From positions 30,013 through 94,012 of the forward strand of contig CANIRZ010000001.1 of the NCBI GenBank assembly GCA_947470185.1: a stretch of 64,000 nt of DNA, read 5' to 3'. This document shows positions 41,591 to 48,526 of the stretch, in pieces (position 1 is the first letter of the stretch; each line of letters begins with the position of its first letter). The notes beneath the pieces were generated by a model, which searched no databases, was not told where the DNA came from, and saw only the letters and a list, made by a program, of their open reading frames with translations. The DNA is from Sphingomonadales bacterium. Lineage in GTDB: Bacteria > Pseudomonadota > Alphaproteobacteria > Sphingomonadales > Sphingomonadaceae. The position numbers and the translations under genes were made by a program.

Positions 41591-42589
41591 TTATTTGTTA
41601 CCGGAAAATGCGTCGCTGATCGAGCAGGCAGCTGGCCCAAGAATAACAATGAACAAAGTCGGCAGAATGAACAGGATGAGCGGAATGGTCATAATGGCTG
41701 GCAAACGCGCCGCTTTTTCCTCGGCACGCATCATACGATCGTTGCGGAATTCGGCCGAAAGCACGCGTAAGGCAGAGGCCAAAGGCGTGCCGTATTTTTC
41801 GGTCTGAATCATGGTGGTCACAACGCCGCGGATCGAGTCCAAATTCACGCGATATGCGAGATTTTCAAAAGCCATCCGGCGTTCAGTTAAAAAGCCAAGC
41901 TCAATAGCTGTGAGCGTAAACTCGTCGCCCAATTCGGGATAGCCGCGTCCTAATTCTTTAGCCACGCGGTTGAACGCGGTGTCGACGGTCAAGCCAGCCT
42001 CGGCGCAGATCACGAGCAAGTCTAAAGCATCGGGAAGTCCCTTGCGAATGGCCTCCGTCCGCTTGGTGACTAAATTGGCAACATAGATATCTGCCGCTTT
42101 ATAACTTAAAATTGCGGCAGCGGCGAAGGCAGCAAATTTTTTGAATGCGCCCCATTCAGGGACACCGTTCATGGCATAGATGTAAATGGCCGCGCCCCCG
42201 CCAAGGATAATCGGAAGCACCATGCGGCAGAAAATAACGGTGACGGCCAATTCCTTGCGGCGGATGCCGGCTTGCGCCAACCGCTGCTGCACAGCCTTGA
42301 CCTGGTCATCCTGAAGAACCTTAAGCTTCGACAATAACTGCTGAATCTTGTCCGTGGTTTCGTGCGTACGCACCAACTTTGGGCGCTTTTTGGACGTGCT
42401 CGCTATGATGCCAGCCTTCAGCTGTTCACGCCGTTCGCTCAGCGCCTTTACCCGTTTTGCCATGGGGTTGCGTACAGTCACGGCAGAATAGATGGCAATA
42501 ATAACCGCCATGCAGGCCACTGCCGAAAGCATTGTGGCGACCCACAATAAGTCGATGCCCATCCATTGAGGTCCACCCGCGTTGGTCAT
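41591..42589 (-). CDS. tadC: Tad/Cpa secretion inner membrane protein TadC (T2SSF)
   Basis: PDALDLLVICAEAGLTVDTAFNRVAKELG; downstream of tadB. Confidence 0.92.
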   Translation of the reverse strand: MTNAGGPQWMGIDLLWVATMLSAVACMAVIIAIYSAVTVRNPMAKRVKALSERREQLKAGIIASTSKKRPKLVRTHETTDKIQQLLSKLKVLQDDQVKAVQQRLAQAGIRRKELAVTVIFCRMVLPIILGGGAAIYIYAMNGVPEWGAFKKFAAFAAAAILSYKAADIYVANLVTKRTEAIRKGLPDALDLLVICAEAGLTVDTAFNRVAKELGRGYPELGDEFTLTAIELGFLTERRMAFENLAYRVNLDSIRGVVTTMIQTEKYGTPLASALRVLSAEFRNDRMMRAEEKAARLPAIMTIPLILFILPTLFIVILGPAACSISDAFSGNK

Positions 42590-42610
42590 ATGCCCTGCCC
42601 CGTCCCCAAC

Positions 42611-43573
42611 TTAAATTTCAAAGCTGACCATTTTGGCCATGATGAACACGCCCATAGACATCCATAAGGCGCCGCCTAGACCCGCAATAATCAAGCGTTG
42701 CTCATAGAAAAAGCCGGCGAGATATTGCGGATTAACGATCCAGACCATGCCGAAAACGAAAAATGGCAAAGAGCCCACGATATAGGCAGATGCCTTGGAT
42801 TCAGACGACATGGCGCGTATTTTGAGTTTCATTTGCGCACGTTTGCGTAAGACGTCAGCCAAATTAGCTAGCGTTTCTGCAAGATTGCCTCCGGTCTCGC
42901 GCTGAATGGCCAGGGTGATTACAAAAAACTGGAATTCTGCCGTACCTAAACGGTCGGCCGTTTCCTGCAGCGATTCTTCCATGCTCTTACCGATTTTGAC
43001 CTTTTCGGTGACCAATTTGAATTCTTCACCAACGGGGCCCGGAACTTCTTTTGCAACAACGCTCAGCGTCTCACCCACGGGGAGGCCCGACTTCAACCCG
43101 CGCACCAAAAGTTCTATGGCGTCGGGGAAGTTGGCGGTGAATTTGTTAATCCGTCGTGCGATGAAAAAATCGAGCAATATATGTGGCAAACCAGCACCAA
43201 CCAGCAGCCCGCCAAAAAGCGCCAACAACAACGGTGCGTCTTTTAGCCACAATAGCACCATCACAAAAAACGCCAGTCCACCCGAAACGTTCAAATATTG
43301 TTGCAGTGTCCATTTTTTGCCAGTCTGGGCAAGTCGCAGGCGCAGCTTGTCAGTCCTGCTAATATCCCGGCCATCGGTAAAAATCATCGGGCGGCGTGAC
43401 GCTACCGCCTTGCGCATCTGTTGTTCAACGCGGGCATCCGCACTGTCGGAGTGGCGCATTTTTATGGCACCCAGACGCCGAGTTGTCGCCTGACCAACAT
43501 TAGGTCCCATGAAGGCGACAGCCAGCAGAACAAAAATGAGAATTATTCCGGCGCCGAATGTTAAAATCTGCAT
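42611..43573 (-). CDS. tadB: Tad/Cpa secretion inner membrane protein TadB (T2SSF)
   Basis: FPDAIELLVRGLKSGLPVGETLSVVAKEVPGPVGEEF; TLAIQRETGGNLAETLANL. Confidence 0.92.
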   Translation of the reverse strand: MQILTFGAGIILIFVLLAVAFMGPNVGQATTRRLGAIKMRHSDSADARVEQQMRKAVASRRPMIFTDGRDISRTDKLRLRLAQTGKKWTLQQYLNVSGGLAFFVMVLLWLKDAPLLLALFGGLLVGAGLPHILLDFFIARRINKFTANFPDAIELLVRGLKSGLPVGETLSVVAKEVPGPVGEEFKLVTEKVKIGKSMEESLQETADRLGTAEFQFFVITLAIQRETGGNLAETLANLADVLRKRAQMKLKIRAMSSESKASAYIVGSLPFFVFGMVWIVNPQYLAGFFYEQRLIIAGLGGALWMSMGVFIMAKMVSFEI

Positions 43574-43614
43574 ATTGCTGTGCTCTGTTGTTGTGGCCTT
43601 AAGCGCCCGCCGTT

Positions 43615-44874
43615 TTATTTCTTCATCAACATGGTTTTGAAACCGGCGAAGACAGTCTTCTTGGCTTTGGCAGAGGTCAATTCGGCTTCAGCTGTTTCAG
43701 CAAGGCTTCCAGAAATCATATCTGCCAGCGCGACAATGCCTGACGATAGCTTGCTGCTGCGCATGGCTTCGACAACGGGTTGCCCCAGTTTTGCTGCCTG
43801 TGCGGTCGCCTTGGGATCAGCCGGAAGCAACAGGTCTATCTTGGATTCAATCGTATTTTCAAAATCCTTACGGCTGATTTCGACAACCGCACTTTGCACG
43901 TTGTTGGCAACGATTAGTATTTTGCAATGCGGTGCATTTTGTTTCAACCACGCAAGTATACGAATGCTGTCACGCGCCGCCGCCAGTGTCAGTTCCGTTG
44001 TAAGGACTGCGATGTTCACGTCGTGCGTTAGATGTGGATAGGCAATTAACATGCTCCGCGGTAGGTCGATGACGGTGTTGTCGAATGCTGCGCGGAATTC
44101 TTCCTGCAACTGGAAAAATGCGGAGCCATCGGTTAGCACTGGGCTATTCATCGGTGCTTCAGCCGACAAGATCGAGAGCCGTTCATTCGCTTTAATCATC
44201 GCGCGCTCGATAAAGAGGCCGTCAATTCTGCTTGGATTGTCGATTGCATCGGTAAGACCGCGGCCTGGCTCCAGATCCATGGCCAACGCGCCGGTTCCGA
44301 AATGGACGTCCAGATCCAGAAGCCCTGTCGAATGCCCTTGCGCCCGCGAAAATATCCATGCCAGAGATGCTGCAATAGTTGATGCACCCGATCCACCGCG
44401 TGTACCGATGACTGCAGTTGAAATATGGGGGCGGTCGGTATTGCTATCGTCTTGCTTTGGCGCATTCAGCATAGATTGCGCGTTGGCGAAGGCCTCGCGC
44501 AGCGCATCTGCGCTCAGCGGCTTAAGCAGATAATCCTGCAGGCCCGACATCAACAAATCGCGATACAGGCGCACATCATTGACTTGGCCCACGGCGATAA
44601 CGATGGTTCCGGGCTCGCATACCTCGGCAAGGCCGTTGATATCTCCGATCGGATCCCCCGATTCGGAAAGGTCAACGAGCAAAGTATGCGGGCTGGCAGA
44701 AACCGAAAGCGACTGTGTCGCATTACGCAAGCCGCCCTTATAGGCTTTGTCTTGGCTCCAGCCCATTTCTTCACAGACGCCCCGAACGATTTCAAGCGTC
44801 GCGTCGTCACAGACATACGCGTGAATAGGGTCACGTGTTCCGGCCACGCCGGATTTCCAAGGCGCGTTCATCAA
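43615..44874 (-). CDS. cpaE: Pilus assembly protein CpaE/TadZ
   Basis: Receiver-like N-terminus then GTRGGSGASTIAASLAWIFSRAQG ParA/MinD-like ATPase. Confidence 0.92.
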   Translation of the reverse strand: MMNAPWKSGVAGTRDPIHAYVCDDATLEIVRGVCEEMGWSQDKAYKGGLRNATQSLSVSASPHTLLVDLSESGDPIGDINGLAEVCEPGTIVIAVGQVNDVRLYRDLLMSGLQDYLLKPLSADALREAFANAQSMLNAPKQDDSNTDRPHISTAVIGTRGGSGASTIAASLAWIFSRAQGHSTGLLDLDVHFGTGALAMDLEPGRGLTDAIDNPSRIDGLFIERAMIKANERLSILSAEAPMNSPVLTDGSAFFQLQEEFRAAFDNTVIDLPRSMLIAYPHLTHDVNIAVLTTELTLAAARDSIRILAWLKQNAPHCKILIVANNVQSAVVEISRKDFENTIESKIDLLLPADPKATAQAAKLGQPVVEAMRSSKLSSGIVALADMISGSLAETAEAELTSAKAKKTVFAGFKTMLMKK

Positions 44875-45458
44875 TTTCCTCCGGTCTTATTTTTATAAGC
44901 GTTGACCGCTGCTTTTCCGCTGTTGCGGTCAAGTCGGCTGCTTTCGCGGCCACGGACGAGATCTTCGGGATCTGCAACCATCGCTGCTATGTTCGCATTG
45001 GTGGCACAGCCGTAGTTGCTGTGGTTGCCGGCGTTGAAATTGCTTTCCGTGGTTGTGCTCCAATCGGGGCAGGATGGCACAGAAGCTTGTGAACGCGTGA
45101 CAACAACCCTGATAGTGCCCGGGGCAATTGCGCCAGTTGTTTTGGGGGCTGTCTGTGTAATCAACATGCCGCGTTTTTGGGCCGCAGCAGCCACATCGCG
45201 ATATGCATCGCTGCTGGCATAGCCATCATCGTCGATCGAGATACGGTCGCCATATCCCAAATTGAGAGCATCGAGCCATTCGGCCAGACGTTTCTGATCC
45301 GCAGAAGCCACGCCGCTGCCATCCGACGCCAAGTCGATTGCATAGTTCGTCCGTTGAACCACCGGTTGGTGCGCCGAATACATGGATGTGTTGGTCGACA
45401 CTGCCCCGCAGGCTGCCAAAGTGAGGCTGGCAGCGATCAGGAATATTGCTTTCTTCAT
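44871..45458 (-). CDS. cpaD: Pilus assembly lipoprotein CpaD
   Basis: ASLTLAACGA lipobox; CPDWSTTTESNFNAGNHSNYGCATNANIAAMVADPEDLVRGR. Confidence 0.93.
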   Translation of the reverse strand: MKKAIFLIAASLTLAACGAVSTNTSMYSAHQPVVQRTNYAIDLASDGSGVASADQKRLAEWLDALNLGYGDRISIDDDGYASSDAYRDVAAAAQKRGMLITQTAPKTTGAIAPGTIRVVVTRSQASVPSCPDWSTTTESNFNAGNHSNYGCATNANIAAMVADPEDLVRGRESSRLDRNSGKAAVNAYKNKTGGN

Positions 45459-45481
45459 ATATAGTCTCCTGAATCTTGCGG

Positions 45482-46987
45482 TTAGTTATCGAAGCTGAAC
45501 CCGGGACCGTTGGCGACGGTCGCGAAGGCTTCTAGTTGTGGTGCCGCGGCAAGTTTTGGTCCGGATTTGCTTACTGAGCTGAGCTCTGCGCCGTTCGAAA
45601 CGCTTGGCGCAACCGTCGGCATTGGGCGTGTTTTTTCGCCTTGGTTGCTTGATATCTTGCCCAGCAAGACGCGCTCAAGGTCATTGGGTGTATGCATTCC
45701 GTCGGTCGGCAAGACAATCTGGTTTTCGGATACCGGTTTGACCAGATAGGGCGTTATAACGATCATCAACTCGGTCTCGTTCCGACGCCAGCCATTGGAT
45801 TTGAACAAGGCGCCCAATATAGGAATGTCCCCACCGCCAGGCATTTTCGATACCGAGCTACCCATCTGATTGCTGAGTAATCCGGCGATCATCATGCTTT
45901 GTCCCGAACCCAGTTCGACGGTTGTTTCCGCCATCCGTGTCGTGGTGGCAGGAACCTCAAGTCCGTTGAGGCGGACTGCGCCTTGCGATGAAATGTCCGA
46001 AACTTCCGAGCGCACCCGCAAGGAGATTCGACCATCCGACAACACTACAGGCGTGTAGGTTAGGTTGACGCCATAACTTTTATACTCGACGCTGGTGCCG
46101 TTGTTCGATGATGTTACGACAGGAAACTGACCACCGGCCAAAAACTCGGCCGTTTCGCCGGATACGGTTGTAAGGTTTGGATTGGCCAATGTAGACACCA
46201 AACCGGCTTTTTCCGACATGTCGAACGCTGCTTCGATATCAATGCCAAACAAACGGCCAATCGCAGCAACGGTGCTTCCGCCTTTCTGATAATTTACTAC
46301 ATTGTTGTCATTTACCAGGTCGCGTCCCTGAGCCCCGCCAACGAAATACGGATTGCCATTACTGTCAAATCCTCTCTTCACGGACTTCAAATTGCCGCTG
46401 ATTTCTTTTGACAGTGATCGGCTGACTTCGGCAATCCGCACTTGCAAGTTGATCTGCAGCGGGGTTGCGTTTTTAAGGCGACTGACGACTTGCGTCGTAC
46501 CACCTGAAAAGGTCTTCACCAGATTCTCGGCCTCAACTGCTTCTTCCGGTTCATTGACCGTACCAGTTAGCAAAATGACCCCGTTCATTGTGGTTACAAC
46601 GATTTGCGCGTGTGGCATTGCAACGGCGAGCATTTGCCCAATGGAATCCATATTGCTGCCAACGCGGACGTTCGCCTGATATACCGTGCGACCCGCAGCA
46701 TCGGTTGCATAGACTGTCGTCTCACCCGGGCCTTTGCCCAAAATGTAAATCTGCCGGCCAGATTTGACTGCAACATCGGCAATAGCGGGATCAGCGACGA
46801 CAACGTCGGTGATGTTCGCGCCAAGGTTGACTTGTTGGCCACGCCCGATGGACAGAATAAGCAGCTTTCCGTCTTTTGCGGACTGCGCGGCGGCTGGCGA
46901 TGGTAATGCGACCAAAGCCGGCACGCACAGCGCAGCGGTCATGGCGACCGCGGCAAAGCCCGATTTTAGTGATGTAAAACGTGCCAT
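45482..46987 (-). CDS. cpaC: Outer membrane secretin CpaC/RcpA
   Basis: GETAEFLAGGQFPVV; YGVNLTYTPVVLSDGRISLRVRSEVSD; MIAGLLSNQ. Confidence 0.94.
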   Translation of the reverse strand: MARFTSLKSGFAAVAMTAALCVPALVALPSPAAAQSAKDGKLLILSIGRGQQVNLGANITDVVVADPAIADVAVKSGRQIYILGKGPGETTVYATDAAGRTVYQANVRVGSNMDSIGQMLAVAMPHAQIVVTTMNGVILLTGTVNEPEEAVEAENLVKTFSGGTTQVVSRLKNATPLQINLQVRIAEVSRSLSKEISGNLKSVKRGFDSNGNPYFVGGAQGRDLVNDNNVVNYQKGGSTVAAIGRLFGIDIEAAFDMSEKAGLVSTLANPNLTTVSGETAEFLAGGQFPVVTSSNNGTSVEYKSYGVNLTYTPVVLSDGRISLRVRSEVSDISSQGAVRLNGLEVPATTTRMAETTVELGSGQSMMIAGLLSNQMGSSVSKMPGGGDIPILGALFKSNGWRRNETELMIVITPYLVKPVSENQIVLPTDGMHTPNDLERVLLGKISSNQGEKTRPMPTVAPSVSNGAELSSVSKSGPKLAAAPQLEAFATVANGPGFSFDN

Positions 46988-46991
46988 CTGC

Positions 46992-48008
46992 TTATCTCCG
47001 GCTAATGTCGATTTCGGTCACAGTGCCGCCACGCGATACGCGGACCACTGGACCCTTCGCAATTTTCTCGACTTGCTTTTGCGTGCGCGCTTGTTCTGCG
47101 GCGACCGCGAGCGGCATTTGTGGCGGCACGCTGCTGCGTTGGAAGCGCGACACATCGCCGCCCGTGGCATAGCTGCTACGGTCTGCGCTTGGCCGTTCCG
47201 CCACTTGGCGCATGATGGCCTGTTCCTGCTCGGCGGTTGCGCCTTCCGGAATGTTGACTTCACCAGAGACCATAGCCTGCTCCAGTTCAGCCGCGTTGTC
47301 GGTCAAGGCGCGCAGCGAAAGGCTGATGGTGCCTATTGATTGGGCAACGGTAATCTTTTCCGCGATGCGCGGTGTTGCTTCGACAGTTACCAATTTATAT
47401 TCTGTGACAACGGTGTTGCCCTTGTCATCCAAAGTTGGTGTTACCCGTTGGTCGGTTGCCAGCACACGTAAATTGCGTACGATGGTTTCCGACACTTTCA
47501 GCGGCGGACCGCTGCTGGCGTTGACATTTTGGGTGAGGACGAGGTCAACGCGGTCACCTGGGAACACAAAACCGGCAACGCCAGTCAACGCTGATACAGG
47601 CACAGTGACGGCGCGCATGCCGGGGCCAAGTGCCGCAGCGAGGAAGCCGCGATCGCCCGGCTTCACAAGTGACCCTTGCGTTAATGGCTGACCAGCGGTC
47701 ACCGCATTGCGAACGACTGTGCCGACAAGGCTGTCGATGGATGCGCCTTCGTCGCCTTCTTTGAAATAGGCTGCTTGGATCAACTCTTTTGGCCATGGTT
47801 GGTAACGGACACTATCGGCTGTGATTAGCGTGCCGGGGGGCAACGCCCGCGTTGCAACGAGAACCTTTGGTCCGGTCGGCACCGGCGCTACTGTCGCTGC
47901 TTCAGCCTGTGGTGTTGAAGCGCCTGTAAACATGCTGCGTGCCATGAAGGCGGTGATGACTGCGATTAAAAGCGCCGCCACCAGCAATGCGACTTTTTTC
48001 CTATCCAT
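46992..48008 (-). CDS. cpaB: Pilus assembly protein CpaB/RcpC (SAF domain)
   Basis: VLVATRALPPGTLITADSVRYQPWP; FVFPGDRVDLVLTQN. Confidence 0.93.
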   Translation of the reverse strand: MDRKKVALLVAALLIAVITAFMARSMFTGASTPQAEAATVAPVPTGPKVLVATRALPPGTLITADSVRYQPWPKELIQAAYFKEGDEGASIDSLVGTVVRNAVTAGQPLTQGSLVKPGDRGFLAAALGPGMRAVTVPVSALTGVAGFVFPGDRVDLVLTQNVNASSGPPLKVSETIVRNLRVLATDQRVTPTLDDKGNTVVTEYKLVTVEATPRIAEKITVAQSIGTISLSLRALTDNAAELEQAMVSGEVNIPEGATAEQEQAIMRQVAERPSADRSSYATGGDVSRFQRSSVPPQMPLAVAAEQARTQKQVEKIAKGPVVRVSRGGTVTEIDISRR

Positions 48009-48052
48009 GACAAACTGTCCCTTGAGCGGCGCCCTGATTGAACGTCTCTATT

Positions 48053-48526
48053 TCATGCAAAATGGTTAAAGAACCGTTCACCGACTATCCACAGGCCCGA
48101 CAGGGAAATAGCCACGCCATAGGGGATGCGCGCACGCCCATTGCGCTTTTTCAATTTGAAAATGACCAGGAATATGATGGTTACCAAGGCGCCAATTATG
48201 GAGGCATATAAAATGAGCCGGATGACCTCAATCCAATGAAACCAGAGCGCCAAGGCGCTAAAAAGCTTCACATCTCCGCCTCCCATCGCGCCAAAATGAA
48301 ATGCCGTGGCGAAGAAGGTCAATGTGACCGTGGCGGTCACAAGGTGGATGCCAATTTCAGACACGCTAAACCCGCCCGTCGCCAACCAAAACAACGGCGC
48401 GGAAAGTGCAATGCCAAGCGTTATTACGTTGTAAATCAGCCGGTATCGGATGTCGGTATATATCGACACCAACAGCGCAATTGCCAAGCCGCCAAGGGTA
48501 AAGTAAGCGAGAGTTTCACTGGTCAT
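48053..48526 (-). CDS. cpaA: A24 prepilin peptidase CpaA/TadV
   Basis: SIYTDIRYRLIYN; GAMGGGDVKLFSALALWF (GxGD family). Confidence 0.92.
   Translation of the reverse strand: MTSETLAYFTLGGLAIALLVSIYTDIRYRLIYNVITLGIALSAPLFWLATGGFSVSEIGIHLVTATVTLTFFATAFHFGAMGGGDVKLFSALALWFHWIEVIRLILYASIIGALVTIIFLVIFKLKKRNGRARIPYGVAISLSGLWIVGERFFNHFA

Follow-up and report, generated by a model that had tools for sequence, protein, structure and literature searches.

A sphingomonad Tad pilus locus without cpaF, and a stand-alone CpaF paralogue as its probable motor

Introduction

The textbook picture of Tad is a type IV filament encoded at one locus, which makes a tad locus without a gene for the motor ATPase CpaF a puzzle: what, if anything, drives its pilus? 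Such a locus lies in a 64,000-nucleotide stretch from a Sphingomonadales bacterium (NCBI GenBank assembly GCA_947470185.1, contig CANIRZ010000001.1, positions 30,013 to 94,012 of the forward strand), which was analysed as a whole and is called the window here. A preliminary description of the window, made from the sequence alone, had offered three fates for cpaF (relocation, loss, or supply in trans from a second Tad locus) and had reported pilin and pseudopilin genes as missing. We searched the rest of the genome for the absent parts, compared the locus across named relatives and the order, and followed the fate of cpaF on CpaF and core gene trees.

Results

The locus consists of seven genes, all intact, in the order cpaA-B-C-D-E-tadB-tadC on the minus strand (Table 1). 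The open reading frames are as first described, and Pfam and NCBIfam profiles assign them to the expected families, with the platform pair TadB and TadC encoded as two adjoining T2SSF proteins. The 41 bp reported between the cpaE stop at 43615 and the tadB start at 43573 were borne out, and no cpaF remnant is visible in this junction. The preliminary description had also seen no VirB11/GspE-like reading frame, flp, tadE/F or tadG in the window. This holds: searching the genome for T2SSE in all six frames gave only two matches, both elsewhere, and Flp and TadE matches likewise fall outside the window. When CpaF, Flp, TadE, TadF and TadG from the same genome were used as tblastn queries, the window gave no match at E<=0.01.

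Table 1. Features of the window locus, the motor and pilin genes elsewhere in the same genome, and the core deletions found in the window's genus (window coordinates unless a contig is named).
Feature	Product or carrier	Position	Strand	Evidence or remark
cpaA/tadV	prepilin peptidase, 157 aa	48053..48526	-	Pfam Peptidase_A24 3e-17
cpaB/rcpC	338 aa	46992..48008	-	NCBIfam TIGR03177 3.6e-62, over its cut-off; Pfam RcpC 6.5e-31
cpaC/rcpA	secretin, 501 aa	45482..46987	-	Pfam Secretin 8e-42; T2SS-T3SS_pil_N 5.7e-20
cpaD	pilus lipoprotein, 195 aa	44871..45458	-	Pfam Pilus_CpaD 2e-43
cpaE/tadZ	localisation ATPase, 419 aa	43615..44874	-	ParA/MinD-like; best NCBIfam CpaE_hom_Actino 5e-13; place in locus
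cpaE-tadB junction	41 bp	43574..43614	-	spot holding cpaF in other families of the order (G028, G031, others)
tadB/cpaG	inner-membrane platform, 320 aa	42611..43573	-	Pfam T2SSF 7.8e-27
tadC/cpaH	inner-membrane platform, 332 aa	41591..42589	-	Pfam T2SSF 6.5e-18
stand-alone cpaF	516 aa, complete	G000:C19:16729-18276		T2SSE match
flp	two tandem genes	C2:53061-53458		Flp match
deletion A	sisters G018 and G017	41696..48430		cpaA codon 32 joined to tadC codon 295; tblastn and blastn
deletion B	G015 and G024	41969..48260		cpaA codon 91 joined to tadC codon ~205; tblastn and blastn

The window genome (G000) is a draft, 63% complete and in 19 contigs, and its two T2SSE matches lie on contigs C14 and C19. 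The C19 protein is a stand-alone CpaF whose best matches among solved structures are CpaF hexamers of the C. crescentus type (E = 3e-138). Its gene sits beside polA and genes for an EamA-type permease and a nitrilase, and because the same neighbours are found in relatives G006 and G018 the contig is sound. The C14 protein is GspE, its gene lying between a secretin gene and gspF, and this placement led us to reject it as a substitute motor; the type II secretion operon concerned (secretin, gspE and gspF, L001:258-4121) stands apart from the Tad system.

The pilins and pseudopilins are encoded elsewhere in the genome rather than lost. In genome-wide six-frame searches Flp was found only on C2, where the first of the two tandem genes scores below the Pfam cut-off, and TadE only on C6 and C7, each time within a tadG-tadE-tadF cluster whose TadF-like protein falls just under the Pfam cut-off. 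Transposase- and recombinase-like reading frames occur a few kb upstream of the tandem flp genes (L022:3446-7777). The two tadG-tadE-tadF clusters (L203:3443-7003 and L204:5690-9242) are similar to each other, against one Tad core. Genome-wide, the Tad (type IVc) components found comprise TadB/TadC, TadA/CpaF, TadZ/CpaE, secretin and RcpC/CpaB, Flp and TadV/CpaA, and TadE/TadF/TadG. With the core, cpaF, flp and tadGEF all on different contigs, this is not a single-locus system but one scattered over the genome.

A TadB scan of named genomes placed the window in or beside Sphingorhabdus. The scan yielded 80 named loci from Sphingorhabdus, Sphingomonas, Erythrobacter, Croceibacterium, Aurantiacibacter and others, and from it we infer that the window's family (f1) is Sphingomonadaceae in the broad (GTDB) sense. 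The cpaE-tadB junction was empty in 80 of 80 loci, across many genera, and in none did the fetched DNA, up to 10 kb on either side, hold a cpaF at any other point. In the more contiguous relatives G005 (core at 2.02 Mb, cpaF 2.07, flp 1.88, tadE 1.68), G016 and G022, distances of tens to hundreds of kb separate the Tad islands. In 50 family genomes with both genes on one contig, cpaF and tadB are separated by 14 kb to 2.9 Mb (median 312 kb), as coordinate distances that ignore circularity. Three genomes from other families of the order (G028, G031, G037) have the whole Tad set in one compact locus, within about 15 kb.

One account of a cpaF outside its locus is that the in-locus gene was transposed within the family, the same gene at a new address, and a family genome usually does hold just one CpaF close to the stand-alone type at an address that varies by lineage. 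The CpaF trees (53 rows, and 79 rows with outgroups from across the class) argue against it. In both, the stand-alone copies form a single clade (support 100/99) that spans seven families of the order (f1, f2, f3, f5, f6, f7, f8), and the family's in-locus copies nest among the in-locus copies of the order. Stand-alone copies from basal family members and from the six other families group with one another, apart from all in-locus copies, and a tree constrained to unite the family's two kinds of copy loses 145 log-likelihood units (AU p = 0.0003). Moreover, eleven genomes carry both genes, inside the family (G121, G045, G077, G093) and outside it (G026, G038, G141, G142, G144, G145, G170). By these trees the stand-alone CpaF appears to be a separate paralogue and not a moved locus gene. 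Transposition within the family is thus rejected, unless long-branch attraction misled the tree, and we regard it as improbable.

Three addresses of stand-alone cpaF were recognised: pepP-S9 peptidase, the ATP synthase operon, and polA/EamA/nitrilase, the last in the window's closest relatives. The order pepP - S9 peptidase - cpaF is common to G121 and G133 in the family and to G038 and G036 in two other families, a shared neighbourhood that fits vertical descent of the gene; given its patchy occurrence outside the family, some horizontal transfer may also have taken place. This synteny was seen in three families at loci L121 and L130 (family) and L118 and L119 (others). The neighbour is the ATP synthase operon atpHAGDC in about half of the examined family loci (L026-L030, L032, L135-L137, L147, L148, L150, L152, L154, L157). 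None of the three addresses is pilus-related, so the neighbourhood was rejected as a clue to function and informs descent only.

On a core tree built from concatenated CpaC, CpaE, TadB and TadC, two changes are required to explain where in-locus cpaF is absent. One falls below the bulk of the family, the other in G133, whose genus-mate G045 keeps both genes. The in-locus gene was thus lost twice, at the base of most of the family and inside a genus. G089 is the reverse case, with in-locus cpaF present and a stand-alone copy not found. Among the fates first proposed for cpaF, loss from the locus therefore stands and relocation does not.

Core and stand-alone gene are inherited together. Stand-alone cpaF was found in 81 of 81 family genomes with a cpaF-less core and in 1 of 15 without a core in either form, five genomes with an in-locus copy being left out; the Fisher p of 6e-16 overstates the association, since the genomes are related, and is an upper bound on its strength. 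One of the 81, G071, has its copy cut by a contig end. Another, G096, retains the core and has its stand-alone cpaF in two frames (G096:C1:1624111-1625617), by sequencing error or recent loss. Within the window's genus the gene was present in 14 of 15 genomes with the core, the exception being G002, a 72% complete draft. Two further genomes count against the link, with an intact stand-alone cpaF but no core: G018, where this state may be recent, and G107.

Between members of the genus, the dN/dS of the stand-alone gene is 0.02-0.09, indicating strong purifying selection, and K305, E326, E375, R365, R377, D226 and E349-G350-x-G352 are invariant in all 26 family CpaF copies. These positions are the Walker A lysine, the catalytic glutamate, arginine fingers and residues of the platform-contact loops; the platform-contact residues tested in Caulobacter CpaF were D208 in Loop 8 and E331, G332 and G334 in the Central Loop (PMC11300603).

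In the window's genus the core has been removed by two independent deletions (Table 1), both at one site flanked by genes for an FAH-type hydrolase and an alpha/beta hydrolase. Each scar is marked by a cpaA 5' stub and a tadC 3' stub (L236:5359-5556, L237:8894-9091, L238:7755-8387, L239:8004-8638). After deletion A, cpaF is intact in G018 and was not found in G017; after deletion B, it carries a stop near codon 71 in G015 and a frameshift in G024, both draft assemblies. No intact TadE was found in these four genomes, and their Flp genes remain. A further four genomes (G003, G004, G007, G020) have an empty core site without remnants and no CpaF of the stand-alone type. Loss of the core is usually followed by decay or disappearance of the distant motor gene.

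These observations bear on the idea that a second, distinct Tad locus supplies the CpaF that drives the core, while the stand-alone CpaF serves something else. Many family genomes do possess a second Tad locus, with a roughly 50% identical CpaF beside its own tadB. However, no second CpaF of this kind was found in the window genome or in several genus members (e.g. G008, G014, G016, G022), where the other CpaF-like matches are 30-40% identical and VirB11/TrbB-like, and it is the stand-alone gene that core presence tracks and that decays once the core is lost. We therefore rate a second-locus motor as somewhat less probable even than transposition. The earlier proposal of a motor supplied in trans from a second Tad locus keeps its first part, in the form of the stand-alone paralogue; a second Tad locus was not found in the window genome, which is 63% complete.

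We rate it as very unlikely that the locus is a motorless relic in decay. The core has indeed been deleted repeatedly in the genus, but the window's own seven genes are whole, their layout recurs in all 80 named loci, cpaF is under strong selection, and the pilins and TadE/F/G are intact elsewhere in the genome. A cpaF collapsed in assembly, conceivable in so fragmentary a draft, carries negligible probability and is refuted: 80 named contigs have this junction as well, as do complete genomes assembled as one contig, G001 and G005 among them.

Taken together, co-occurrence, low dN/dS, conserved residues and co-decay support a stand-alone CpaF working for the core locus. The window very probably holds a Tad (type IVc) core whose motor is encoded elsewhere, the stand-alone paralogue having replaced the in-locus CpaF as sole motor for the pilus. 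The protein is thus predicted to assemble with the window's TadB and TadC and to drive the pilus.

Discussion

A two-step history would account for this arrangement. The ancestor of the order would have had two CpaF ATPases, one encoded between cpaE and tadB in the tad operon and one encoded alone; most of the Sphingomonadaceae would then have lost the in-operon gene, leaving the stand-alone CpaF as the only motor. As a soluble hexameric ATPase it could dock on TadB/TadC in trans and power both extension and retraction of Flp pilins that are encoded at yet another place.

By gene content and order the window's core resembles canonical Tad/Cpa systems (cpaABCDEF-tadBC of Caulobacter crescentus; G028 and G031), and it shares with them a CpaF-type bidirectional motor, Flp pilins and TadE/F/G pseudopilins. 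It differs in that the sphingomonad operon lacks cpaF and probably relies on a stand-alone paralogue, with pilins and pseudopilins at further separate places. One filament machine made from scattered genes recalls type IVa pili (PilB/PilT/PilC/PilQ), whose genes normally occupy several loci (Denise et al. 2019, PMC6668835), whereas the sphingomonad components are Tad-type by sequence. The MacSyFinder Tad model permits several loci, a single locus being usual and not defining (PMC6668835). In our literature search on sphingomonad Tad, cpaF paralogues and split loci, which covered few subscription journals, we did not find this arrangement described.

The compactness of Tad has been invoked to explain its frequent horizontal transfer (PMC6668835), and an ecologically common family with a scattered Tad system and a paralogue motor offers a direct test case for that idea. 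In practice, locus-based tools will call sphingomonad Tad pili incomplete. The two lineages with core deletions provide a natural before-and-after record for an unlinked motor gene.

The finding that CpaF of C. crescentus is a bifunctional motor for extension and retraction (PMC11300603, PMC12019362) raises the question of two motors per Tad pilus, and genomes with two CpaF genes allow a direct experiment on it. The ancestral sphingomonad Tad might have used both, for example one for extension and the other for retraction or surface sensing by analogy with PilB/PilT, as G045, G121, G144, G145 and G170 might still do, with most of the Sphingomonadaceae keeping only the unlinked one. We consider this rather unlikely.

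The stand-alone CpaF resembles that of C. crescentus (PMC11300603, PMC12019362; PDB 8rkd, 8rjf, 9e24) over a similar-length core at about 55-60%, with Walker, arginine and platform-contact residues invariant, and differs in that the stand-alone copies form their own paralogous clade. Between the two CpaF clades, 32 columns are fixed differently, among them Pro/Arg at 340 and Gln/Glu beside the Loop 8 aspartate. A point against our reading is that this otherwise invariant aspartate is itself changed in three of the eight stand-alone CpaF copies examined from outgroup genomes with both cpaF genes (L187-L191, L118, L119, L037), although these three keep all the catalytic residues.
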